DNA of 57,100 nucleotides from Oscillospiraceae bacterium. GTDB taxonomy: Bacteria; Bacillota; Clostridia; Oscillospirales; Ruminococcaceae. The translations under genes were made by a program, and so were the position numbers. Below are positions 1,082-52,588 of this stretch, one piece after another. The notes beneath the pieces were generated by a model. That model was not told where the DNA came from. It saw only the letters and a list, made by a program, of their open reading frames with translations, and did not search any database. Positions within the stretch are counted from its first letter, which is position 1. Each line of letters opens with the position of its first letter. The DNA lies in contig JAIRWC010000019.1 of assembly GCA_031253495.1 (NCBI GenBank), positions 1 to 57,100 on the forward strand, in the 5' to 3' direction.

Positions 1082-1104
1082 AATGCAGGAAAGGACGAAT
1101 CACC

Positions 1105-1155
1105 GTGCCGCAATTTTCATTGAATTTTGTGCAAGGTGAGGCGGCACGGTCATAA
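1105..1155 (+). CDS. 16-codon intercistronic leader ORF before accD (diverged copy)
   Basis: A GTG-started reading frame encoding MPQFSLNFVQGEAARS, preceded by the purine-rich site AGGAAAGGA at 1087-1095 and ending in TAA two bases before the accD ATG. The same module, with a nearly identical peptide, occurs before rplF and before addA. This copy differs from those two by R3Q, S7N, A9V and R10Q and has GTG in place of ATG. The DNA also forms a hairpin, with ACCGTGCCGC pairing to GCGGCACGGT across the ORF. accD has no SD of its own at normal spacing; its only upstream GAGG is about 16 bases away and lies inside this ORF. I infer that accD is translated by coupling or re-initiation from this leader. 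The repeat and the frame are seen directly; the function is inference. Confidence 0.6.
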   Translation: MPQFSLNFVQGEAARS

Positions 1156-12028: not shown

Positions 12029-12057
12029 ATTATACCACGTTACGCCTTATCGGTCAA
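12029..12057 (-). promoter_or_regulatory. Promoter of the MerR gene
   Basis: On the minus strand: TTGACC (12057-12052), a 17-base spacer and TATAAT (12034-12029). The -35 box and part of the spacer lie within the last codons of the portal gene. Confidence 0.8.
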
Positions 12058-13423
12058 GCGGGGGTATCCTCCGCGCGGATTTGCGCCTCATCTCCCCGGA
12101 AATGTCGTCCGCCCACGGATGGTTGGCGATAACCGTTTCTTCCGACAGCAGCGCCAACGATTTTACGCAGTTGTCTATAATTTGCCCCTCGTTGAGCATC
12201 ATGTCGCGGTTAAAAATAAATTCGGCGTTTTTTGAACCCGCGAACCCCCCGTGTTCGAGCGACCTGTTGACAAACCACAGCGTTTCCGCCAGTGCCGCTT
12301 GAAACTCGGTTTCGATTTCGTTGGCGTCCAAATCGATATCGGAATACATGGATTGAATGTTCATCTGATTGGGGTTGCCGCCGCCCAAAACGCGGCTGTC
12401 CTTCGCGTCGAACCCCATGCCGTTTTCGATTACCGCCCTTTTGAAAATCTCAATAATCGCGCGGTAATTGTCGGCGTTCACTTCCACGCGGAGCGTTTTC
12501 AAGTCCCCCGCCGCGCCGTCCACGCTGCGAACCTTTACCGCGCCGTAGGCGGCCAAATTCCGCCTGAACTCGCTTAAATCCTCGCCGTCGTAGTTGACTA
12601 AAACGAGCAGCGTGTTGCGCGGGTCTTCCTCCATCGCGTTCCAGAAATTCGACAAAATGAGGTTCAACCCGTCTTGAAGCGATTTAACCGAGCTTATCAA
12701 CGGGGTTTCGTCCCCGTCCCGCTTAAACGCGATTAACGGAATCTTTTCCCAGTTATATTCCCGGGCGAACCCGTTCCCCGCGACGGTGATATACGACGCG
12801 CGATAAGGCGGGACGCTTACGGGCTTGTCGTCGTCCAACCTGAAATAATGCACCCCCGCCCCGTCGAAAACCTCGGCTCTTTCGACGGCCTTTTCGTCCC
12901 CGCCGGAGCAATCGGCGGTTTCGTATATCCTGATTGCGTAATCCAACCGGGTATGTTCAAAATCCCGCCAGCCCGGGATTATCTCGCAGCCTTTCAACCT
13001 TTTGAACTTCAGCGCGCCTTTTTCGTAATAGAGGTAAATCCAGGCTATGCCGTGGTTATAAGCGTCTTTCGCGACGTTTTTCATCATCCGCATAAACCCC
13101 TTGTCGAACACCGCCGCCAATTTCGCGCGGTAATCCCCGTCGCCCGCGCGAAACGTCAGCGGCTGCCCGAGAATATAATTGGCTTTCTGGTTGACCAATT
13201 TGCGGTACTGGTTGTCGACGGCTTTATTGTCGGGTAAATTCCGCGCCGTTTCAAGCTCCCCCGCTTCCCCTATGACCGCCCTTTTCCTGTAGACGATATC
13301 GTGCCGCCCCGCGAAATAATCCTCGCCCAAAAGCATCAGCCGCCGCTTTTCGGAGGCTTTGAACCGCAAAATCTCCCGCCCGATAAATTCCCTGTCAGCT
13401 TTTTTTCTGAAATCAAATTGCAT
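12047..13423 (-). CDS. Phage portal protein, SPP1 gp6-like, orphan
   Basis: 458 residues, complete, with AAAGGAG before its ATG. Portal proteins form the dodecameric ring through which phage DNA is packaged. Family features: KLVNQKANYILGQPLTF near 95-111, DAYNHGIAWIYLYY, IPLIAFKRDGDETPLISSVKSLQDGLNLILSNFWNAMEE, then LGGGNPNQMNIQSMYSDIDLDANEIETEFQAAL, all typical of the SPP1 gp6-like group (PF05133), which usually runs near 450-500 residues. No head, protease, capsid or tail genes are near. The terminase gene lies on the opposite strand beyond a histidine kinase. This is either a prophage remnant or a retained gene. The frame is intact, so decay is recent or selection persists. Confidence 0.88.
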   Translation of the reverse strand: MQFDFRKKADREFIGREILRFKASEKRRLMLLGEDYFAGRHDIVYRKRAVIGEAGELETARNLPDNKAVDNQYRKLVNQKANYILGQPLTFRAGDGDYRAKLAAVFDKGFMRMMKNVAKDAYNHGIAWIYLYYEKGALKFKRLKGCEIIPGWRDFEHTRLDYAIRIYETADCSGGDEKAVERAEVFDGAGVHYFRLDDDKPVSVPPYRASYITVAGNGFAREYNWEKIPLIAFKRDGDETPLISSVKSLQDGLNLILSNFWNAMEEDPRNTLLVLVNYDGEDLSEFRRNLAAYGAVKVRSVDGAAGDLKTLRVEVNADNYRAIIEIFKRAVIENGMGFDAKDSRVLGGGNPNQMNIQSMYSDIDLDANEIETEFQAALAETLWFVNRSLEHGGFAGSKNAEFIFNRDMMLNEGQIIDNCVKSLALLSEETVIANHPWADDISGEMRRKSARRIPPLDR

Positions 13424-13561: not shown

Positions 13562-13605
13562 CACTTATATCGCGGGGTTGCGCCCGCTGGAAGGAGGTGT
13601 CTCTC

Positions 13606-16569
13606 ATGCCGGCAAAAAGAAGAAAAAACAGGGCTTATTTCCTTCTCGCGCTTGTGTTTGTCGTTACATTGGGGACCGTTATCCTTATAGTTCAGTTTGA
13701 AACCGGGGATATGATTTCAGAGCTTACGCTCAAACAGGCGGACACGGCCAACCGCTCTTTCGCCAATTATCTGGGCGAGCTTGAGGAAAGGGCCCTGCAA
13801 TGGACGGAAGTGATAATCAACGACGCGAACGTCCTCGGTTCCTTAAAAAGCGGGAAATACGACAGCCTTAAAAGCGATTTGACCAATTTGGCGCCGAGCG
13901 TGGATTATATAAGCGTATACGGTCTCGACGGGTCCGTGATTTTCAGAACCGACGGCGACCCCGCGGGTCTTAGGGGCGCTCCGGCGCGCGCGGACATTTC
14001 AGCCGTTCTGCGGGCGGGTTCCGCCGTGCGGGCGGTCTTTACCGACCCTTCCACCGGGTTCCTTTCGGCCGGCGCGAGCGCGCCCGTTTACGACGAGGGG
14101 GCGGTGGTATTCGTCGTAAACTGCGGCTTCGACCTTTCCAAAAAAGATTATGTGGACATATTCAAAGAGCGGACCGGCTGTGAAGCCACGGTCTTCCAGA
14201 ACAACATACGCATAAGCACCACCGTTACCGATTATTCCGGCGAACGCGTGGTGGGGACCGAAGCCCCCGACGACGTGGCTGAAATCGTGTTGGGGCGGAA
14301 AAGCAAGCATATAACCGAGCTTAACCTTTTCGGGAGGATGTACGCGGCCTGCTACTCCCCCGTTATGACCGACGGGGAAGTTATCGGCATCCTGTTTACG
14401 GGGGTCGATATAGGCACCTCGCTTGAAAGACAGCGCGTTATGGGGTATCTTATCATCTTGGCGGCTTTTTTGGGCGTAACCGCGGCGATAATTTCCATGC
14501 TGGTTTCGGGAAAAACGGAGCGCAGACATTCCTCCGAAATAGAAAAGGAGCTTGAACAGCAGCGGTTAATGGCGAGAATAGCGCGCCTTTTCCTGTCGGA
14601 CACCGAAATGAACGTTTTGATTACCGACACGCTTCGCATGATTGGGGAATTTATGCGGATACCGCAGGCGCTCCTCTTCCTGTTGGAAGACGACGGGCGC
14701 ACCCTCGTCTGCGTCAACGAGTACATAAATCCCGAACTCGGCATCCCGTCGCGCATAGGCGGCAAGATGCCGCTCGGCGACAAAATGCACTCTTTCATAG
14801 ACAAGCTGAAACCCGGCGTGGGGAAAGACGCCTGCCTCCATTCCAACGACCCCGCAATCAAGAAAACCATGGCCCCTTACCGCGTCAGTTTTGAAAACTA
14901 TATAACCACGCCGATATTCGTCAAAGGCAAAATGTACGCGGTGATTGATTTTTCAAGGGACGACGACGGGAAAAACTGGAGCGACAGCGAAATAAGCCTT
15001 TCGACGCTCTTCGCCAGCATCTTGTCCGGCGTGTTTGAGCAAAAAGCCATGGAGTTGCAAACCTCCGTCGTCGAAAACGCCCCCGTAAGCATAGTATACG
15101 CCCTTCAAGACGGCAACCTCGCCTACGCGAACCCCGCCATCGCCGCCCTCACGGGTTACACCGAAAGCGAAATCATCGCGGGGGGGCTGGAGCTTATCTT
15201 CGATAAGGAAGAGGCCGACGACATAAAAAACATGTTCATTCCCATGGCGCTTTCAAGCGGCGCGTGCCACGAGGTTAACCTGAAAAACAAGGACGGGGGA
15301 AGGCGAATCCTTGAAATCAAAAGTTTCGCCATAAAGGACGGCATAGTCGCCGCCATCGGCATCGACCTGACCGAAACGCGCGCCCTCGAGGCGGAATTGA
15401 TTTCCGCCAAGGACCTGGCGGAACAGACGAGCCGTTATAAATCCGAGTTCCTCGCCAACATGAGCCATGAAATCCGCACCCCGCTCAACGCCATTACCGG
15501 CATGACGAATATCGGGAAGTCCGCCGCCGACTTGGAGCGCAAGAATTATTGCCTCGGCCGGATAGAAGAGGCGTCCGGCCACCTCCTCGGCGTTATAAAC
15601 GATATTTTGGATATGTCCAAAATTGAGACGGGGAAGATTGAGCTTTCGCCGTCGGCGTTCAACCTCGGGAAAACGCTTCAAAAGGTCGTCAACATCGTAT
15701 ATTTGCGAATGGAGGAAAAACGCCAGAAATTAGACCTGCGAATAGACGGGAAAATCCCGGAGGCGCTCATAGGGGACGAGCAGAGACTGTCGCAGATTAT
15801 TACGAATATTTTGGGCAACGCCGTGAAGTTCACGCCTGAAGAGGGGAAAATCACCGTTGACGCGTCCCTTTCGGAAGAAACGAACGGCGTTTGCGTGATA
15901 CGGATATCCGTCGAGGATTCCGGCATCGGTATAAGCCCCGAACAGCAAACCCGCCTGTTCCAGCCGTTCCATCAGGCGGAAAACAGCACCACCCGCAAAT
16001 ACGGCGGCACAGGGCTGGGGCTTGCCATTTCAAAGCGGTTGGTGGAGATGATGGGCGGTGATATCCGCGTAAAATCAGAGCTCGGAAAAGGCGCGGCGTT
16101 CGTCTTTACGGTTCGGGTAAAACGCGGGGAGGGCGTCGGCGACGCGGATTCAGGCGCGAAAGAGTGGGGCGCGGACGCCGCCGACCTGTTCGCGGGGAAA
16201 AGTATACTGCTTACGGAGGACGTGGAGATTAACCGCGAAATAGTGCTGTCTTTATTGGAGCATACGCTTTTGGAAATCGACTGCGCCGAAAACGGGAAAG
16301 AGGCGGTGCGGATGTTCGGCGAGGCCCCGGACAAATACGGGATGATTTTTATGGACGTGCAAATGCCCGAAATGGACGGTTACGAGGCGACGCGGAGGAT
16401 ACGCGCGCTCGGCGTCCCGAACGCCAAAACCGTGCCTATTATCGCGATGACGGCGAACACTTTCAACGAGGACGTCGAAAAGTGCCTTGAAGCGGGAATG
16501 AACGGGCATATAGGAAAGCCGCTCAATTTTGACGAGGTTATGGAAAAACTCCGCGAATGTCTGAAATAA
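13606..16569 (+). CDS. Hybrid sensor histidine kinase (Cache-GAF-PAS-HisKA-HATPase-REC)
   Basis: 987 residues from the ATG at 13606, eight bases after AAGGAGG; the GTG at 13597 lies inside that SD. Order: TM helix (about 10-28), an extracytoplasmic Cache-like sensor to about 270, a second TM (about 277-300), GAF-like domain (about 325-480), PAS (about 490-600), HisKA with FLANMSHEIRTPLNAITGM (phospho-accepting His), HATPase with DEQRLSQIITNILGNAVKFT, EDSGIGI and GGTGLGLAIS, then a receiver (ILLTEDVEINR, acceptor Asp in MIFMDVQMPEMDGYEA). No HPt domain or partner regulator is present, so output needs a phosphotransfer protein elsewhere. It sits alone between two phage packaging genes. Confidence 0.93.
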   Translation: MPAKRRKNRAYFLLALVFVVTLGTVILIVQFETGDMISELTLKQADTANRSFANYLGELEERALQWTEVIINDANVLGSLKSGKYDSLKSDLTNLAPSVDYISVYGLDGSVIFRTDGDPAGLRGAPARADISAVLRAGSAVRAVFTDPSTGFLSAGASAPVYDEGAVVFVVNCGFDLSKKDYVDIFKERTGCEATVFQNNIRISTTVTDYSGERVVGTEAPDDVAEIVLGRKSKHITELNLFGRMYAACYSPVMTDGEVIGILFTGVDIGTSLERQRVMGYLIILAAFLGVTAAIISMLVSGKTERRHSSEIEKELEQQRLMARIARLFLSDTEMNVLITDTLRMIGEFMRIPQALLFLLEDDGRTLVCVNEYINPELGIPSRIGGKMPLGDKMHSFIDKLKPGVGKDACLHSNDPAIKKTMAPYRVSFENYITTPIFVKGKMYAVIDFSRDDDGKNWSDSEISLSTLFASILSGVFEQKAMELQTSVVENAPVSIVYALQDGNLAYANPAIAALTGYTESEIIAGGLELIFDKEEADDIKNMFIPMALSSGACHEVNLKNKDGGRRILEIKSFAIKDGIVAAIGIDLTETRALEAELISAKDLAEQTSRYKSEFLANMSHEIRTPLNAITGMTNIGKSAADLERKNYCLGRIEEASGHLLGVINDILDMSKIETGKIELSPSAFNLGKTLQKVVNIVYLRMEEKRQKLDLRIDGKIPEALIGDEQRLSQIITNILGNAVKFTPEEGKITVDASLSEETNGVCVIRISVEDSGIGISPEQQTRLFQPFHQAENSTTRKYGGTGLGLAISKRLVEMMGGDIRVKSELGKGAAFVFTVRVKRGEGVGDADSGAKEWGADAADLFAGKSILLTEDVEINREIVLSLLEHTLLEIDCAENGKEAVRMFGEAPDKYGMIFMDVQMPEMDGYEATRRIRALGVPNAKTVPIIAMTANTFNEDVEKCLEAGMNGHIGKPLNFDEVMEKLRECLK

Positions 16570-16690: not shown

Positions 16691-16727
16691 AAAACAACCG
16701 TTTAAACGCGGTTGTTTTTTATTTTTT
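16691..16727 (+). terminator. Intrinsic terminator directly upstream of the terminase gene
   Basis: AAAACAACCG (16691-16700) pairs with CGGTTGTTTT (16709-16718), followed by TTATTTTTT. It should stop transcription from the kinase gene. It ends about 20 bases before the terminase ATG, so that gene can be expressed only by read-through or antitermination. Confidence 0.85.
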
Positions 16728-16747
16728 ATAAAAAAGGAAGGAAAACA

Positions 16748-18001
16748 ATGGAACAAAATCTGCGTTTAAGCAAACTCGTCGGCGGCGGTTACGACGGGTT
16801 TTGGAACTTTAAGGGGCGGTACCGCGTCGTCAAGGGCGGCAGAGCCTCGAAAAAATCGCGGACGGCCGCGCTTTGGTTCGTTTACAACATGATGGAATTC
16901 CCCGCCGCCAATCTGCTCGTCGTCCGAAAAACCTACAATTCCCTGAAAAATTCATGCTTTTCGGAATTGAAATGGGCGATTGACAGTTTAAAGGCGGGGC
17001 GGTTGTGGAAGGTCAAGACCTCGCCGCTTGAAATGAATTATCTTAAAGGGGGGAACGTTTATTTCAGGGGATTGGACGATTCCATAAAGCTGACGAGCAT
17101 AACGGCGGATAAGGGCAAACTGTGCTGGATTTGGATAGAAGAGGCGTTCGAGATTTCGTCCGAAGAGGATTTCAACACCCTTGACGAAACCGTCAGGGGG
17201 AAAGTGGGGCGGGGCCTGTTCAAACAGGCGACGCTCACGTTCAATCCGTGGAATGAAAACCACTGGCTCAAAAAGAGATTTTTCGACGCCCGCGACGACG
17301 ATATTTTCACGCTAACCACCGATTATACCTGCAACGAGTGGCTTGACGAAGCGGACAAGGCGCTTTTTGAACGCATGAAAAAAACCAACCCCCGCCGTTA
17401 CCGCGTCGCGGGATTGGGCGAATGGGGCGTTTTAGACGGGCTTGTGTTCGAGGATTGGGAGGAGCGGCATTTTTCAATCGAGGAAATAAAGCGGAAAAAG
17501 GGCGTTTTAAACCCCCGTTCGCTGAAAAGCGCGTTCGGTTTGGACTTCGGCTATACGAACGACCCGACCGCCCTTTGTTGCATGATGGTCGACGCCGCCG
17601 ATAAAACCATTTATGTTTTCGACGAGCTGTACGAGTTCGGCTGCTCAAACCGCGACATTTACGAAAAAATCCGCGCCCTCGGCTACGGGAAGGAAAGGAT
17701 TTACGCGGATTCCGCCGAGCCGAAGAGCATAGACGAGCTTTATTCGCTGGGGCTGTCCGGTATAAGGAAAGCGCGTAAAGGCAAGGACAGCGTCAACCAC
17801 GGAATACAGTTCATAAAAGGGCATAAACTCGTCATTTTGCCCAAATGCGTGAATTTTCTGCGTGAGATTTCCGCCTATTCATGGGCGGAAAACGCGTCCG
17901 GGGCGAGGACGAACACGCCGTCCGGCGGTTACGACCACCTTATGGACGCCATGCGGTACGGGCTGACCGAAGTCTGCGACGGGGAACGCTGGGGTTTTTG
18001 A
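16748..18001 (+). CDS. Phage terminase large subunit (PBSX-type), orphan
   Basis: 417 residues, complete, with AAGGAAGG before the ATG at 16748. The enzyme is the ATP-driven motor and nuclease that packages phage DNA. A Walker A-like loop KGGRASKKS (about 29-37), the adenine-binding VVRKTYNSLKNS, Walker B LCWIWIEEA and the coupling segment LTFNPWNENHWLKKRF are present. The nuclease half has GLDFGYTNDPTALCC, RIYADSAEPKSIDEL and YDHLMDAMRYG. No small terminase subunit is adjacent, and the portal gene lies on the other strand 3.3 kb away. An intrinsic terminator lies just upstream with no clear promoter. It may be a remnant, or retained for an unknown purpose. Confidence 0.9.
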   Translation: MEQNLRLSKLVGGGYDGFWNFKGRYRVVKGGRASKKSRTAALWFVYNMMEFPAANLLVVRKTYNSLKNSCFSELKWAIDSLKAGRLWKVKTSPLEMNYLKGGNVYFRGLDDSIKLTSITADKGKLCWIWIEEAFEISSEEDFNTLDETVRGKVGRGLFKQATLTFNPWNENHWLKKRFFDARDDDIFTLTTDYTCNEWLDEADKALFERMKKTNPRRYRVAGLGEWGVLDGLVFEDWEERHFSIEEIKRKKGVLNPRSLKSAFGLDFGYTNDPTALCCMMVDAADKTIYVFDELYEFGCSNRDIYEKIRALGYGKERIYADSAEPKSIDELYSLGLSGIRKARKGKDSVNHGIQFIKGHKLVILPKCVNFLREISAYSWAENASGARTNTPSGGYDHLMDAMRYGLTEVCDGERWGF

Positions 18002-27647: not shown

Positions 27648-28193
27648 TTATTTCTTGCCTTTGCCGGCTTTGCCCTCTTTGCGGATAATGGTTTCGTCGG
27701 CGTATTTGATTCCTTTGCCCTTGTAGGGTTCAGGCGGGCGAAGCCCCCTCACTTCCGCCGCGAACTGCCCGACCTTTTGCTTGTCGACGCCGTTTATGAT
27801 TATTTTATTGGGGGATGGCGCCTCAATGGTTATATCGTCGGTATCCCTGACAATCACGGGGTGGGAGAAACCCAAAACCAAGTTAAGCTCTTTGCCCGTC
27901 TTTTGGCAACGGTAACCCACGCCGTTGATTTCCAGCTCTTTTTTAAATCCGACGGTAACCCCCGTTACCATATTGCCGAGCAAAGTCCTCGACAACCCGT
28001 GAAGCGAACGGTCCCGCTTGCTCTGCGTTTCGGGCGTTACGCTTAACGCCCCGTCGGCGAGCGCGATTTTCATCGACGGTTTAAACTCGCGGGAAAGGGA
28101 ACCTTTCGGACCCTTTACCGTAACGGTCGAGCCGTCTATCCTCACATCCACCCCCGCGGGAACGGGGATGGGCATTTTCCCTATTCTTGACAT
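27648..28193 (-). CDS. rplF: Ribosomal protein L6
   Basis: 181 residues. MSRIGKMPIPVPAGVDVRIDGSTVTVKGPKGSLSREF and the C-terminal RPPEPYKGKGIKYADETIIRKEGKAGKGKK are diagnostic. L6 stabilises the base of the L7/L12 stalk region. The ATG lies two bases after the stop of a 16-codon leader ORF and has no SD of its own at normal distance; translation is probably coupled to that leader. The rpsH-rplF gap is 104 bases. Confidence 0.97.
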   Translation of the reverse strand: MSRIGKMPIPVPAGVDVRIDGSTVTVKGPKGSLSREFKPSMKIALADGALSVTPETQSKRDRSLHGLSRTLLGNMVTGVTVGFKKELEINGVGYRCQKTGKELNLVLGFSHPVIVRDTDDITIEAPSPNKIIINGVDKQKVGQFAAEVRGLRPPEPYKGKGIKYADETIIRKEGKAGKGKK

Positions 28194-28195
28194 AT

Positions 28196-28246
28196 TTACG
28201 ACCGTGCCGCCTCACCCCGCGCAAAGCTCAACGAAAATCGCGGCAT
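28196..28246 (-). CDS. 16-codon intercistronic leader ORF before rplF (MPRFSLSFARGEAARS)
   Basis: ATG-started frame encoding MPRFSLSFARGEAARS, stop TAA two bases before the rplF ATG, preceded by the purine-rich site AAGAAAGGA. The peptide is identical to that before addA. The two ORFs differ at four bases (TCA/TCG, AGT/AGC, GGC/GGT, TCA/TCG), all synonymous third positions, which argues for selection on the peptide and not only on the DNA or RNA shape. A 10-base GCGGCACGGT / ACCATGCCGC pairing (one mismatch) spans the ORF. The role is inferred: translational coupling to rplF. Confidence 0.65.
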   Translation of the reverse strand: MPRFSLSFARGEAARS

Positions 28247-28297
28247 GGTGATACGTCCTTTCTTATTGCAATTCCGCTTGACATTGAAATAAACTCA

Positions 28298-28696
28298 TTA
28301 CCAGACAAACGCGAGGATTTCGCCGCCGACGCGTTCCGCCCTCGCCTTTTTGTCGGTCATCAACCCTTTGGAGGTGGACACGATGGCGATGCCGAGCCCC
28401 TTCATCACTTTCGGCATTTCTCTCGAATTTGAGTAGATTCTCAAACCGGGCTTCGACACCCTGCGCAACCCCGTAATGACCTGCGCCTTGTTTTCGGCGT
28501 ATTTCAAGGTAATCCTTATCACGCCCTGTTTGCTGTCCTCGATAATTCTGAAACTTTTTATATATCCCTCGTCTTGAAGAATCTGCGCGATTTGCCTTTT
28601 CAAACCGGAGCAGGGGACATCGACTATCGGGTGCTTCGCCGCGTTCGCGTTGCGTATCCGCGTGAGCATATCCGCGATTGTATCGGTAGTTTGCAT
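28298..28696 (-). CDS. rpsH: Ribosomal protein S8
   Basis: 132 residues from the ATG at 28696 with AGGAGGA upstream. [28 protein letters not shown] and the ending [31 protein letters not shown] are diagnostic. S8 binds 16S rRNA early and in some bacteria represses the spc operon. Upstream, the rpsN-rpsH gap holds three 26-bp tandem repeats. Confidence 0.97.
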
Positions 28697-28730
28697 ATTT
28701 TTCCTCCTGTGTTTAACCGGCGTTTTGCCC

Positions 28731-28808
28731 GCCTTTGAAAATTCCGGGTCCGCGCCGCCTTTGAAAATTCCGGGTCCGCGCCGCTTTTGAAAATCCCGGG
28801 TTCGCGCC
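28731..28808. repeat. Three 26-bp tandem repeats between rpsN and rpsH
   Basis: Two identical and one slightly diverged copy of a 26-base unit (core TTTGAAAATTCCGGGTCCGC) lie head-to-tail in the 137-base gap. The third copy has TTTTGAAAATCCCGGGTTCG. They are transcribed within the operon but not translated. Their period is not a multiple of three. Confidence 0.85.
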
Positions 28809-28833
28809 GCCGAAACGGCGGGGAACCAATCCG

Positions 28834-29019
28834 TTACCAAGACGACTTTTTGACGCCGGGAATGTGCCCTTTATACGCCAATTCCCTGAAACAAATTCTG
28901 CAAATCCCAAACTTGCGCAAATAGGCGTGCGGTCTCCCGCAGAGTTTGCATCTGGTATACGCGCGGGTGGAGTATTTGGGCGCGAGCTTTTGTTTCGCAA
29001 TCATCGATTTTTTCGCCAT
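28834..29019 (-). CDS. rpsN: Ribosomal protein S14, zinc-binding (type Z)
   Basis: 61 residues with CKLC near 24-27 and CRIC near 40-43 as zinc ligands. The start [24 protein letters not shown] and ending [13 protein letters not shown] are standard for the short S14 of Firmicutes. It sits between rplE and rpsH. Confidence 0.97.
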
Positions 29020-31390: not shown

Positions 31391-32365
31391 TTATTCCTCC
31401 TCTTTTTTCGTAACCTCCGCCGCCCTGTCGCCGCCCGAGGAAGCCGCCCTGTCCGCCGCCCTGTCGCCGCCCGAGGAAGCCGCCCTGTCGCCGCCCGGGG
31501 AAGCCGCCCTGTCGCCGCCCGGGGAAGCCGCCCTGCCCGGTCCGTCCCCTCTGCCGAAGCCCGGTCTGTCCGCGCCGCGCTGACCGGTTCTCGAAGGCCT
31601 GTCGCCCGACTGTCCGCGGCGTTCGCCCCTAAAATCGCCGCCCCTGTCGTCGCGGCGGGGCCTGCGCGCGGGCCTTTCGGGGATAACGCGTTTGTTCCCC
31701 GCTTCCCCTTTGAGAACCTCGCCTTTATAAATCCAAACCTTAACCCCGATAATCCCGTAGGTCGTCTTCGCCTTCGCCGTGCCGTAATCGATATCGGCGC
31801 GGAGCGTATGCAAGGGGATGGTACCCTCGTGATAGCTTTCGGAACGCGCGATTTCAGCCCCGCCGAGCCTGCCCGAAACCATGGTCTTAATCCCGTTCGC
31901 GCCGGCGTCCATCGTCCTTTTGATACAGGATTTCATGGCCCTTCTGAAAGAGGTGCGCATTTCAAGCTGGCGCGCGATGTCTTCCGCGACGAGCTGCGCC
32001 GTTAAGTCGATTTGCTTGTTTTCCACGATATTGAGGTTGACGGGTTTTCCGCCCGTGATTTTCTCCAAGTCCACGCGGATTTTTTCGATTTCCAACCCCT
32101 TTTGCCCGATTAAAAGCCCGGGCCTGGCGGTGTGAATGAAAATTTTGATTTTAGTCGCGTCGCGCTCGATTTCAATGTCGGAAATGCCCGGTCTAAGCGG
32201 CGACGACGATTTTTCCGTGGAATACGTTTTGCCGAGCAGATACCCGCGTATTTTAAAATCCTCCACCAGCGTGTCGCCGAAAGTTTTCTTCCCCGCGAAC
32301 CAACGCGAACTCCAATCCTTGATTATCCCTACCCTTAACCCGTGCGGATTGACTTTTTGTCCCAT
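31391..32365 (-). CDS. rpsC: Ribosomal protein S3 with a ~100-residue Arg/Gly/Asp-rich repeat tail
   Basis: 324 residues, against about 210-235 in most bacteria. The body is normal: [20 protein letters not shown], the KH domain ([29 protein letters not shown]) and the C-terminal domain ending near [11 protein letters not shown]. From about residue 222 a low-complexity tail follows, rich in Arg, Gly, Asp and Pro. It ends in repeats of the eight-residue unit AASPGGDR or AASSGGDR and a charged EVTKKEEE. The repeats are also visible in the DNA as 24-bp units. S3 lines the mRNA entry channel, so the tail would project from the solvent side of the 30S. Its function is unknown. Confidence 0.96.
31420..31540. 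repeat. 24-bp coding repeats in the rpsC tail
   Basis: Tandem in-frame units (core GCCGCCCTGTCGCCGCCCG on the + strand), each coding for eight residues, with one partial unit. Because the unit length is a multiple of three, copy number can change without breaking the frame. Confidence 0.8.
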
Positions 32366-42041: not shown

Positions 42042-42092
42042 TTATGACCGTGCCGCCTCGCCCCGCGCAAAACTCAATGAAAATCGCGGCAT
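42042..42092 (-). CDS. 16-codon intercistronic leader ORF before addA (MPRFSLSFARGEAARS)
   Basis: ATG CCG CGA... frame encoding MPRFSLSFARGEAARS, ending in TAA two bases before the addA ATG. The purine site AGGAAAGG begins just after the addB stop codon. The peptide is identical to the copy before rplF. The addB-addA gap holds only this module. Hairpin arms GCGGCACGGT and GCCATGCCGC (one mismatch and one G-U pair) span the ORF. The repeat and frame are direct observations; a role in addA translation is inference. Confidence 0.65.
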   Translation of the reverse strand: MPRFSLSFARGEAARS

Positions 42093-42115
42093 GGCGAGGA
42101 GCCCTTTCCTGTTTT

Positions 42116-45100
42116 TCAACCTTCGATAACCCTTTCAATCGCGTTTTTGTTTATGAGCCTCACCCTTTTCCCGCCGTTCCCGCATACCGCCGAATAATCG
42201 CAGTATTCGCAGACGGCGGTGTTTTTGTCGGGGACCGCGGGCGCCGCCGCGATATTCCCGCGTTTTATCTGTTTGACGCGCGCGCCGATAAGTTTGGCGC
42301 AATAATCCTTTAAATTCTCATAAGCGGCGGGGGTAAGCCGTTTCGCTTTGACGAACTCTTTTCTTAAAGAGCCGCTTTCCGCCCTGTACCTTTGTTCGCG
42401 GTTTAAGAAGTCTTTTTCCGCTTTTGAGCCGTCCGCCACGTAAACCCCGCATGGAATATGCGCCGAAAGCCAGTTTCCGCGGGTTTTGGAAGCGTCGGCC
42501 GAAACCGAGCCGTTTTCCGGTTCGAGCGCGGCGCCGAAGCGAAACCCGTCCGCGGGCATATACAACGCCGAAGAGGGTTTGCGAACGCCGTCCCCGCACG
42601 CCGCGAAAAGATAAAGCAGTATCTGCGTGTCCAGCCCGTAGAAAACCGACGGGAAATCCATTTCTTTGCCGCCCGTTTTGTAATCCGTTACGCCGATATA
42701 TTCACATTCGCCGTCAACGACGAGGACGTCCGTCCTGTCGATTTTCCCGGTCAGGCGAACGCCCCCGAACAGGAAATCGACGCGTTCCTCAAACGAGCGG
42801 GGCGTGAAAGCGCTGTTCGCGAAGTCGTCGCGGATATGCCGAAACATACGGATTATACCCGGTTTGAAACTCTTGAGTATATATTCCTGCCGTTTGGTGA
42901 AGGCGTAACCCGGCGGCAGTTTGGTTTCGCGGTAATCGCTTATGCAGCGTTCGGCCAAGGCGTCCGTTTTCGCGTCGGAAGCCCCCTCGAAAATTTCGGG
43001 GGTTTCCCGGTAAGCGCGAAGCAGCCTGTCAAGGCAGAAATGGATAATGTTCCCGCGTTCCGTCCCGGCGGGTTCCTCGTCGTTTCGCGTTTCTGGAACG
43101 CGGATTCCCAACCCGTACCGGCAAAAGAACTTGAAACGGCAACTCATCAGCGTTTCCAATCCCGTGGGGGAAAACGCCTCAAAGTTGAACAGCCTTTCGG
43201 CCGTTTCGGGCGTTAAAAAATGTTCCCCGCTCCAAACGCCCGCCTCGAGTTTTTCGGCGAAAGCGCCGTCGCCGACGGCAAAGAGCGCTTTTTTAAGAAC
43301 CGCCGCGTTCGCGCGGTCGCCGAGATTTTCGGCGAACAGCTTGCGGGCGGTTTTAACGGTTCTCGCCCAAAAGGAAAGCGGCAGGTCGGAAACGCGGTTA
43401 ATTCCGGCGGCTTTCCCCCGCGCGGTCAAATCGTCGAATATCGGGGACGGCCGCAGTTCCTCCCACGCCCCGTCCCTAAGCGGCGCGGTTATAAAAAGCC
43501 TTTCCGACGGAAGGGTCAAAGCCTTGTCCGCGACGAAACGCCCGTGATAATATCTTTCAAGGCGCTTCGCCTTGATTTTCAAACCGTTTTCGTACAGCGC
43601 CTCAAGCTCCCCGCTCGAAAACTCGCCTTCAAAGGCGGCGCTTTTCGGGAAAACGCCCATGTTCGCGCCCGCGACAAACACAACCTTCGCGCCGTTTAAG
43701 CGGGTGCGCTCGGGGTCGCCCGCGGTTACCGCGTCGAGAACCTGCGGCGGCTTGGCGATGTTCACCGACGAGAAGAACAGGCGAAGCAACTCCGCGTAAT
43801 CGTCGAGGCTGACGGAATAGCCTTTCAGCGCGTCGCGCAGGGACTCGAAGACCTCGACGATTAAATCCCAAAGCTGCCGGTATTCGTCCGTGAAGGTTTT
43901 TTTATCCGCTTCGTTAAAGCCGGGCGAACGGCACAAGCCCAAAACCGTCCGCTGCAATTCCGCGACGTCTATCAAAAAGCCGCACAGCGCCTCGGTGATT
44001 TTGTCGCCCGTAACGCCGCGCGCGGCGTCGCGCAGGTTGACGAGCGCGGATACTATTTCCTTTCTCAACGGTTCCGCCGCCCATAATTCGCGGTTTTGTT
44101 CGGGGAACGGCGACCCCCACTCCTTTTTCGTAAGGTTCCAGCGGCGGGCGGCGCTTTCAAGCAAATCCATGTCGCGCTTGGAAAGCCGTTTCGTAAGTCT
44201 GCCGCCCGTTTTCACATAACCGTAACGCTTGTCGGTTTGGGATTGACCGAGCTTTAAATTTCGCGGGGCGACCGGGTTCCCCCGTTTTGCCGGAACGCGG
44301 ACAAAGCCGCTCCTTATATAAGCCAGCACCTTGTCCGTGTCAAGCGAAACCGCCTCTAACGCGGACAGGATAAACCGCGCCAGCGGCTTTTTGATAATCG
44401 GTTCGGGCAAATCCGCGAAGAATTGTATTCCGTAATCGGAAAAGGCGGAGGCAAGTTTCGGCATAATGTCGGGGCGGCAGGCGAGAACCGCTATTTCGTT
44501 GCAGGAATAACCGTTTTCGGTAATCAGTTCGCGGATTTTCGCCGCGATAAACTCACATTCGGCGTAAGCGTCGTCGGCAAGCCAAAGCTCGGTTTTCGGG
44601 GAATACGCGCGGCCGCCCAAATCGATACGCTCGAAACCGACGCCCGTATTCGCCGCCTCCGCTTTAAAACGGTTAATAAGGGCGTTAATCGCGTAAAATT
44701 CGGGAACTCCGTTTTTTGAAGCGTCGGTTCTCAGCAGAATCGACAGCTTTTCCGCGGAACCGGCGATGGCTTTTAAAACCGCGATTTGGCTTTCCGAAAA
44801 GCCGTCGAACTCATAGACGAAAACGCGAAGCCCGGAAAAGCATCCGTGTTCCGCGATAAGGGAAGCCGCCCGCGCGTCGTCGTCAAGCTTGTCCGAATAA
44901 TCGGCTTCAAGCGCGTCGCAATAAACGGAGAAAATCTCCGCTATGTCGGCGAGCTTCGCCGATAACGCCTCGTCGCCCGCCCCATCCCGCGAGGAATCGA
45001 GGTTCGCGGCGACCGCCGCTTTCCTGAGGGCGGACTGCGTTATCCCCGCCGCCTTAAGCTCGCCCGCCAAGTCCAGCATACGCGCGGCGAAGCCGGGGGA

Positions 45101-50598: not shown

Positions 50599-51582
<984 letters not shown>

Positions 51583-51598
51583 TTTAAAGATAACCTCC

Positions 51599-51608
51599 CA
51601 AATATTTG
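51599..51608. promoter_or_regulatory. CAAATATTTG palindrome upstream of znuA
   Basis: A perfect 10-base palindrome just before the znuA SD. It could be a repressor site, but it does not match a Zur or MntR box that I can recognise. A weak TAAAAT -10 lies nearby. Confidence 0.3.
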
Positions 51609-51686
51609 ATTTTAAACGCAAAAAAACAAGGAAACGCCGGACGAACCCTTAAAAAGGGCGCGAAGCGCCGCCTTGCGGAGGTTATA

Positions 51687-52031
51687 TCAACCGTTTATCT
51701 TAATTTTTAAACTCACCGGCGTTCGAAACGCCCGAAAAGACGGCGCGGCGACGCCCGCCGCCGAAACCGCCGCGAAAACGGCGGCCGCGAACGCGACGCG
51801 CTTAAAAACCGCGGTAAACATCTTCAGCAAATCCCCCGCGATTTGGATATAAGCGCAAGCCGAGCAGCCCCCGTCCCGGTCGTTTTGGTCGTGTTCATGC
51901 CCCGCACAGGCAAAAACGCTTATCCGCGAAAAGAGGGGGAATATCAACAGGCACAGCGCAAGCGCGAGGGCAAGCGCCGTTTTGGCGTTTGTCCCCCCGT
52001 TTTTTGCCGTAACCCGCGAAAAAACGTTCAC
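51687..52031 (-). CDS. Small membrane protein with His/Cys/Asp metal-ligand-rich loop
   Basis: 114 residues from GTG at 52031. Two hydrophobic segments (about 18-42 and 74-96) flank a loop ACAGHEHDQNDRDGGCSACA, rich in His, Asp and Cys. Small proteins with a similar H-x-C/D-C-x-x-C loop are common beside zinc transporters in Firmicutes. The GTG overlaps the bioY stop (GTGA), so it is co-translated with bioY, and the znu genes follow 104 bases downstream. The role is unknown; metal binding is inference. Confidence 0.6.
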   Translation of the reverse strand: MNVFSRVTAKNGGTNAKTALALALALCLLIFPLFSRISVFACAGHEHDQNDRDGGCSACAYIQIAGDLLKMFTAVFKRVAFAAAVFAAVSAAGVAAPSFRAFRTPVSLKIKING

Positions 52032-52588
52032 AAGTTCTCCCCCTCAAGCCTCGCCGCGTCAATCCTGCGCGCCAACGCGGCGCATATAACCGTCTTAACC
52101 GCGTCCGGAACCAAAAACGGCAGGACGCACAAAACGAAAGCCTGAACAATCCCCGAACCGGTAACCAGCATAAACCACGGCAGACCGACGGCGTAGGTCG
52201 CCGCCCACCCCGCGTACATACCCAAAAACAACGCGGGATAAGACCGCCCGAAGCGTTCGATAACCAGCCCCGCGACAAAAGCGGCGAAGACGTATCCCGC
52301 TATGAAGCCGCCCGTAGGTCCGGCGATTTTTCCCAAGCCGCCCTCAAACCCCGAAAAAACGGGAACGCCCGCCGCCCCCAACGCGACGAAAACCGCTTGG
52401 CTTGCCGCCGCCCTCTTCGCGCCGAGAACCGCCGCCGATAAAAATACCGAAATATGCGTCAGCCCGACGGGGACGGGCCCCACCGGAATGACCCAAGGGG
52501 ACGCCGCCGCCGAAACCGCCGCGAAAACGGCGCACAAAACAAGCGTCCGCGTTCGGTTTATTTTCGCTCTTTCCCGCATAAATCCCAC
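52028..52588 (-). CDS. bioY: Biotin ECF transporter S component
   Basis: 186 residues from GTG at 52588 (AAGGA five bases upstream); an ATG nine bases further in is also possible. Six TM helices. BioY features: VPVGLTHISVFLSAAVLGAKRAAASQAVFVALGAAGVPVFSGFEGGLGKIAGPTGGFIAGYVFAAF. It binds biotin and works with the shared energy module (EcfAAT), not encoded here. It lies after birA on the same strand, which supports the biotin role and fits the biotin enzymes at 0-11 kb. Confidence 0.94.
   Translation of the reverse strand: MGFMRERAKINRTRTLVLCAVFAAVSAAASPWVIPVGPVPVGLTHISVFLSAAVLGAKRAAASQAVFVALGAAGVPVFSGFEGGLGKIAGPTGGFIAGYVFAAFVAGLVIERFGRSYPALFLGMYAGWAATYAVGLPWFMLVTGSGIVQAFVLCVLPFLVPDAVKTVICAALARRIDAARLEGENL

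Follow-up and report, generated by a model that had tools for sequence, protein, structure and literature searches.

A dispersed hairpin element before the start codons of unrelated genes in an Oscillospiraceae bacterium, a candidate split ribosome-binding site

The window analysed in this work is a stretch of 57,100 nt from contig JAIRWC010000019.1 of the Oscillospiraceae bacterium assembly GCA_031253495.1 (1.67 Mb, hereafter the own genome or G000; G numbers denote the genomes compared and L numbers denote loci). The window includes three copies of a short module, located as given in a preliminary description of this DNA at 42042-42092 before addA and 28196-28246 before rplF, both on the reverse strand, and at 1105-1155 before accD on the forward strand, with the accD copy having GTG instead of ATG. 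The gene names are largely borne out, with NCBIfam families for L6 and AccD matched above the cut-off. For addA, the best NCBIfam family is AddA, as expected, but the score (574.6 bits) is below the cut-off of 707.65 bits. A TAA stop codon is found 2 bases before the ATG in all three window copies, though this spacing, which the preliminary description gives for all three, is not universal genome-wide. The similarity between copies was also said to comprise 51 bases, but its real extent is longer, reaching ~30 bases further 5'. Table 1 lists the features of the three copies.

Table 1. Element copies in the window and their component parts (positions are those of the window).
Feature	Position	Strand	Basis or remark
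Element copy before addA, AAGGTTG (left end) to CATAA	42042..42123	-	Sequence, 79-base query
Probable native SD GAAAGGG, within the 3' end of addB and 5' of the insertion	42130..42136	-	G314 has ATCGAGAGGATAATATAAATTATG there
Element-carried SD AGGAAAGGG, addA copy	42102..42110	-	
Left hairpin arm GCCATGCCGC, addA copy; one A-C mismatch with right arm	42086..42095	-	
Right hairpin arm GCGGCACGGT, addA copy	42047..42056	-	
Leader ORF of the preliminary description, product MPRFSLSFARGEAARS followed by stop	42042..42092	-	
TGA stop of addB, provided by the left end of the element	42116..42118	-	
addA start codon	42037..42039	-	
Element copy before rplF, left limit uncertain	28196..28276	-	Sequence, 79-base query
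Element SD AAGAAAGG, rplF copy	28258..28265	-	
Left hairpin arm ACCATGCCGC, rplF copy; one A-C mismatch	28240..28249	-	
Right hairpin arm GCGGCACGGT, rplF copy	28201..28210	-	
ATGTCAAG, left copy of the rplF start; may be a target duplication	28277..28284	-	By reading
ATGTCAAG, rplF start proper	28186..28193	-	By reading
Element copy before accD, left limit uncertain	1087..1155	+	Sequence, 79-base query
Element SD AGGAAAGG, accD copy	1087..1094	+	
Left hairpin arm ACCGTGCCGC, accD copy	1102..1111	+	
Right hairpin arm GCGGCACGGT, accD copy; perfect partner	1141..1150	+	

Elsewhere in the window, genes for an SPP1-type phage portal protein (12047-13423, reverse strand) and a phage terminase large subunit (16712-18001, forward strand) are in opposite orientations with a hybrid sensor kinase gene (13597-16569) between them, and this region looks like a broken-up prophage remnant. 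Repeats of other kinds are also present. Three tandem 26-base units (CCGCCTTTGAAAATTCCGGGTCCGCG; the third 88% alike) are found at 28729-28806, near the 5' end of ORF 28298-28840, which is the gene before rplF. Near-identical 24/36-base repeats at 31416-31535, at the 3' end of ORF 31391-32365 (ribosomal protein S3 by reading), give the product a repetitive C-terminal tail, and an identical 29-base sequence occurs at 51755-51783 and 52504-52532, 749 bases apart. A run of glutamate codons (51133-51186) is located in ORF 50599-51621, the product of which has, by reading, the look of a metal-binding lipoprotein.

The recurrence of the module is not due to chance. In the own genome, 27 places were matched by the 79-base query at E ≤ 0.001, including 22 that are near full length. 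These 22 copies were used to build a covariance model, which gave 34 matches at E ≤ 10; among them, 24 are both full-length and high-scoring. The element consensus, AAGKTTGAAAAAYAAGAAAGGACGAATCACCATGCCGCAATTTTCATTGAGTTTTGYGCAGGGTGAGGCGGCATGGTCATAANN-ATG, consists of a purine-rich Shine-Dalgarno sequence (SD), an inverted repeat with 10-base arms (ACCRTGCCGC...GCGGCAYGGT), which had been missed in the preliminary description, and an A-rich stretch before the ATG of the gene. The element is ~80 bp in size, ranging from about 65 to 152 bp. Most own copies have a constant left end, AAGKTTG, and in 21 of the 24 full copies the similarity begins, as judged by eye, ~30 bases 5' of the leader ORF, near AAGGTTGAAAAAC; the three that differ (also by eye) are L040, L043 and L045. 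The element SD is ~60 nt from the ATG with arms of 9-10 bp between them, which is the layout of a structure-bridged ribosome-binding site (RBS).

Shortened or diverged forms with little or no hairpin, such as AAGAAAGGCGGCACGGTCGTAAAAATG, were also seen before start codons in the own genome (L053-L057 and L017), and at L032 an older right end of the element is found directly upstream. The use of GCGGCACGGT alone as a diagnostic was rejected, as many of its 30 loci were found by reading not to be the element. An assembly artefact was likewise rejected, given the presence of copies on many contigs and in several genomes.

The inference drawn from the window, that the element is dispersed and oriented with the genes that it precedes, extends to the whole genome, with 23 of 24 own copies located directly before the start codons of unrelated genes, and the element very probably acts in translation. 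In 19 of the 24, the ATG of the gene is found 10 bases after the start of GGTCRT, with TAA or TGA 2 bases before it. The sequence in L038, L046 and L047 is GGTCATATGAAC with no stop at that place, L040 has two possible ATGs, and L048 follows AAGGAGG and is without a long ORF. The downstream genes identified using NCBIfam encode the unrelated proteins AddA (below cut-off), L6, AccD, S9, RuvA and XseB, and further genes, including those for DnaN, CTP synthase and hypoxanthine phosphoribosyltransferase among others, were recognised by sequence reading only.

Across four species, an ORF in the same direction follows 128 of 139 copies, the remaining 11 being those with no ORF assigned, including L034 that does have a 94-codon ORF. 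A total of 73 matches were available for G313, and 70 of these were used for the analyses of position, frame and downstream genes after exclusion of two weak matches and another truncated by a contig end. The start of an ORF of at least 40 codons is within -6 to +24 of the right arm in 65 of the 70, as compared with 36% of 20,000 random positions. A start at +7 to +11 was found in 47 of the 70, against 15% of random positions, for which the window was wider (4 to 12).

The orthologous sites for 24 gene starts were sought in G314, the closest of the 22 genomes compared from the genus set of 71 (RpsI 95% and RuvA 70% identical to those of the own genome). No full copy of the element was detected in G314, which gave no match at E ≤ 0.01 with model R2 or at 1e-4 with model R1, and four weak matches at E ≤ 10, and the same genes have ordinary, uninterrupted starts. 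This is clearest for rpsI, where GGGAGGATTTTAAGATATG in G314 corresponds to GGGAGGTTCACAAGTATG, the element and then AAGTATG in the own genome, for xseB (GAGGAAAAACATGG in G314; GAGGAGAAGGTTG followed by the element), and for the gene after L036 (AAGTTAAGGGGATAAAAATG in G314; AAGTTAAGGGGATAAAAGTTTG followed by the element). Hence, the copies are insertions into the spacer between SD and ATG, with the native SD kept upstream and the native ATG downstream. A hairpin-less form, AAGTTTGAAAAATAAGAAAGGACGAA then GCATAAAATG, is present in G314 at L065 (1503-1538).

Of the 24 own copies, 18 have an SD core immediately 5' of the left end, compared with 22% of random windows at the same loci, the six copies without one being L032, L040, L043, L045, L046 and L092. 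In the 17 own copies with a left end recognised by pattern, the duplex predicted for the upstream native SD has a mean of -6.2 kcal/mol, compared with -3.7 kcal/mol for shuffled sequences; the duplex analysis covered 46 copies with pattern-recognised ends, including L051, which was anchored wrongly. Among the 24, only L042, L048 and the rplF copy are, by reading, flanked by direct repeats 7-8 bases long, and the start codon (CTG in L048) is part of the repeat.

Within the genus, matches at E ≤ 1e-4 were found in 9 of the 71 genomes including the own genome (27 matches), namely G302 (29), G313 (23), G319 (8), G320 (2), and G310, G317, G322 and G341 with one each. When searched with its own model, G313 gave 104 matches at E ≤ 0.01. 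The matches in G302 at E ≤ 10 numbered 48, 31 of which were read. G302, G310 and G313 each have their own subfamily; G302 includes an additional 152-base form that carries an extra internal hairpin, and the subfamily in G310 has a different core between similar ends. In G302, a second repeated motif (~TGCAGAAAGGNNANGGGTAAA) precedes many of the copies (L094-L121), sometimes after a small hairpin (by reading), and L144 (G313 contig 30, 1-301) comprises several element copies close together, head to tail.

Outside the genus, a family-wide model search of 297 genomes from 126 genera matched the own genome alone among the best candidates per genome, and a family-wide DNA search matched the own genome and one 28-nt armless sequence in G290 that was treated as chance; as scoring in these searches was limited to the best 2 or 13 candidates of each genome, weak copies may have been missed. 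One narrow pattern from the own copies, which would miss copies of the G302 type, had no exact match in the GTDB genome collection and IMG/VR, a search that may leave out very near genomes.

Comparison of the proteins encoded downstream of the 128 copies revealed one clear target gene, rplF, shared by the own genome and G313, and two clear target genes and one weak one shared by G302 and G313. As few genes are hit in more than one species, the insertion sites are mostly independent. A conserved set of target genes was rejected because the gene sets differ between species. L267 in G341 is a diverged copy at an apparent xseA-xseB junction (by reading), the same place as L050 in the own genome, and may represent either an old shared insertion or an independent hit.

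The leader ORF had been interpreted as encoding a peptide under selection, on the basis that the four differences between the addA and rplF leaders, from the ATG to the serine codon, are all at synonymous third positions. The four differences are as reported, but the interpretation does not survive comparison of the 24 full own copies. Over 17 codons (the leader and the preceding codon), 16 of the 22 distinct changes are nonsynonymous, nonsense included, and 6 are synonymous, and with 7, 8 and 7 changes at codon positions 1, 2 and 3, respectively, the synonymous pattern is gone. An in-frame TAG is present in L049, L050 and L092, and GCG replaces the internal start codon in L033 and L052. Frame was scored in 67 of the 70 G313 copies; between leader start and right-arm end, 38 of these have 45 nt and 24 have 46 nt, indicating that the frame is poorly kept. 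A conserved peptide sequence, as in an attenuator or stalling leader, was not found, and the stop does not adjoin the downstream start in every copy, as in a coupling leader, in the four species.

The position of the leader end was assessed using only copies with pattern-recognised ends. Leaders that begin at the internal start end within -10 to +12 of the gene start in 14 of 21 copies in the own genome and 16 of 20 in G302, compared with 8% and 6%, respectively, after random insertions of 1-2 nt. The same window includes 29 of 61 leader ends in G313 (null 32%) and 1 of 8 in G310. In the own genome, an upstream TTG was recognised in 8 of 26 copies, and the leader count from that start was not used. 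Several G302 leaders, 6 to 33 codons in length as a result of different indels, still end 2 bases before the ATG. These include L121 and L122, in which the main stem is broken (by reading), and which were found by the search models despite this. However, L104 in G302 has no stop before the gene and the leader stop in L120 is 28 bases early, both with the arms kept (arms by reading), and a shifted frame in L114 takes the leader end 8 bases inside the gene. Loss of the leader frame is more frequent than loss of the arms, and both devices, the hairpin and the leader, may work.

Pairing of the arms was examined in the 73 G313 matches, where standard pairs make up 99.2% of 648 stem cells. A total of 16 stem cells have double changes as compared with 3.3 in shuffles, these being confined to two pairs (13 and 3 cells), and the numbers of covarying pairs and of pair types are not above those of shuffles (135 and 133 of 500). 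The column pair with the strongest mutual information (0.472; next 0.191) is a stem pair that changes from A-U to G-C. In the own genome, one mismatched stem pair is present in 6 of 22 copies (four A-C and two C-A), including those before addA and rplF.

The fate of each part of the element was followed in the top 70 G313 matches by score, two of which differ from the set used for position, using thirds of the model score as a rough proxy for age, with search models that favour copies with arms. From the high- to the low-scoring third, identity to the consensus is 0.97, 0.99 and 0.93 for the left arm and 0.98, 0.98 and 0.93 for the right arm, and 48 of the 70 are without any arm mismatch. Identity of the element SD rises from 0.83 and 0.85 to 0.92. 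The loop (0.78, 0.64 and 0.60) and the left end (0.81, 0.71 and 0.62) decay, and the left start codon is found in 19 of 24, 18 of 24 and 10 of 22 copies. The native SD duplex falls from -5.9 to -3.5 and -2.1 kcal/mol, as compared with -4.3, -2.9 and -2.8 kcal/mol for shuffled sequences. The element SD duplex, when measured in a fixed window, also becomes weaker (-6.3, -5.7 and -3.9) though its consensus identity rises, perhaps due to register shifts. The persistence of the arms and the element SD while the loop, left end and native SD decay can be read as initiation having been handed from the native to the element SD.

The predicted mean stem probability in context is 0.50 in G000, 0.40 in G302, 0.13 in G310 and 0.41 in G313, with competing folds, and the three window copies do not fold better than shuffled sequences (z of -1.2, 0.0 and -1.3). 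With a 9-bp stem formed, the median bridged distance between SD and ATG would be 14 nt in G000 and G302, 9 nt in G310 and 13 nt in G313. The mode of 14 nt in G000 and G302 is longer than in phage T4 unless the two outer pairs form (by reading).

The cases of structure-bridged initiation known to us are a few phage genes, and we know of no dispersed element that carries a split RBS. In T4 genes 38 and 25, RNA structure shortens the SD-AUG distance from 22 to 5 nt and from 27 to 11 nt, respectively, according to the sections of PMC3014915 that treat these genes. The element is like the split RBS described there in that an SD far upstream of the AUG is brought nearer by structure between them, but unlike the T4 case, where single genes are fixed, it forms a dispersed family before many genes, and its hairpin is only presumed to have this function.

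The suggestion that the element had not been described previously agrees with the absence of an Rfam 15 match over the element at E up to 1 for six own loci and five loci of relatives, and no dispersed element of such kind was found in searches of the open-licence PMC literature. REP/BIME elements occur as many short palindromic intergenic copies and are mobilised by RAYT (Y1) transposases. The element resembles these in its many short palindromic copies between genes, but differs in its fixed position before a start codon and its single orientation. Y1_Tnp (PF01797) was not detected in 8 of the 9 carrier genomes, own included, and gave one weak match in G313. A link to a RAYT/IS200 transposase was therefore rejected, as Y1_Tnp is not associated with the carrier genomes. 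Like MITEs, the element is short and multicopy with inverted repeats; unlike them, it is positioned at start sites, seems to have no constant target duplication, and has no parent transposon or autonomous copy among the element matches. Similarly, operon leader peptides and translational coupling involve a short ORF that ends beside a start codon, but here the copies are dispersed over unrelated genes, the peptide is not conserved and the frame is lost in many copies. Rickettsia palindromic elements are also small, dispersed palindromic repeats that meet coding genes, though these are in frame inside ORFs, whereas the element here ends before the ATG. Table 1 of a survey of bacterial intergenic regions includes 250 'mobile/repeat sequence candidates' (PMC11109978). 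These are likewise structured motifs with multiple copies per genome, but are, by the description of the class rather than motif by motif, often inconsistent in orientation and near transposases, unlike the element.

Based on these sequence comparisons, the element may be a dispersed, probably mobile split RBS with a hairpin that bridges its own SD to the ATG of the host gene, a reading in which our confidence is about even. An ~80-bp family would have inserted, in one orientation, into the spacer between native SD and start codon of many unrelated genes, and the native SD would be left upstream, cut off from its own ATG. The element would bring a new SD (AAGAAAGG), a hairpin and an A-rich stretch ending at the ATG of the gene, and a hairpin in the mRNA would close the new SD-ATG distance to form a split RBS. 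The gene would thus still be translated and would in time lose its native SD. Formation of the hairpin in the mRNA, use of the element SD by ribosomes, mobility, and an active choice of site rather than selection alone are what we infer. The wider proposal, that a mobile element homes to RBSs or start codons, replaces the host SD with an SD-hairpin-ATG device and makes the host gene dependent on it, is put forward tentatively, with confidence just short of even.

The main rival is reinitiation coupled to the leader, where ribosomes would start on the leader, with the native SD serving its TTG or the element SD serving its internal ATG, and would then stop beside the ATG of the gene and restart there, such that frame and stop would matter but the peptide would not. 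This has real support in one species, and is favoured by the leader ends near the gene start in the own genome and G302, by the several G302 indel variants that keep the stop-NN-ATG arrangement even with a broken stem, and by G310, where the upstream TTG was recognised in five of the eight copies and all five have a leader from it that ends near the gene start. However, the copies share ancestry and the frame would therefore be partly inherited. Moreover, the arms are present but the leader is damaged in eight own copies, through loss of the adjacent stop (L038, L046, L047), nonsense changes (L049, L050, L092) or loss of the internal start (L033, L052), as well as in L104 and L120 of G302, and the internal-start counts in G310 and G313, together with decay of the native SD and left start codon in G313, also argue against it. 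Given the G302 variants and the leader-end counts, translated-leader coupling stays a live rival, possibly as an auxiliary route, but is unlikely to be the explanation overall.

The element could instead be a selfish palindromic repeat that prefers SD-like targets, with a hairpin and SD that serve mobility only and a downstream gene that tolerates it. Most insertions being at different genes in different species, the location of L048 after AAGGAGG without a long ORF, and the direct repeats (by reading) at L042, L048 and the rplF copy would all fit, but the arms and SD persist in low-scoring G313 copies in which the left end, loop and native SD have decayed, a pattern that is indicative of selection following insertion and makes this quite improbable. 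Less probable still, indeed hardly to be expected, is a regulatory RNA (a thermometer, protein-binding RNA or bistable switch) placing many genes under one control. The window copies do fold differently and the stem shares its ensemble with other folds, but the gene sets differ between species and no loop is conserved in G313 for recognition by a ligand or protein.

If the split RBS interpretation is correct, a parasite-like DNA element has colonised the SD-ATG spacer, where the bases are among the most constrained in a gene, and even genes that are usually essential would have been made dependent on it. The ~100 natural variants of a split RBS in one genome would then allow the rules of structure-bridged initiation and of reinitiation to be read from sequence, and it would be asked which enzyme or RNA-level process finds the start codons.
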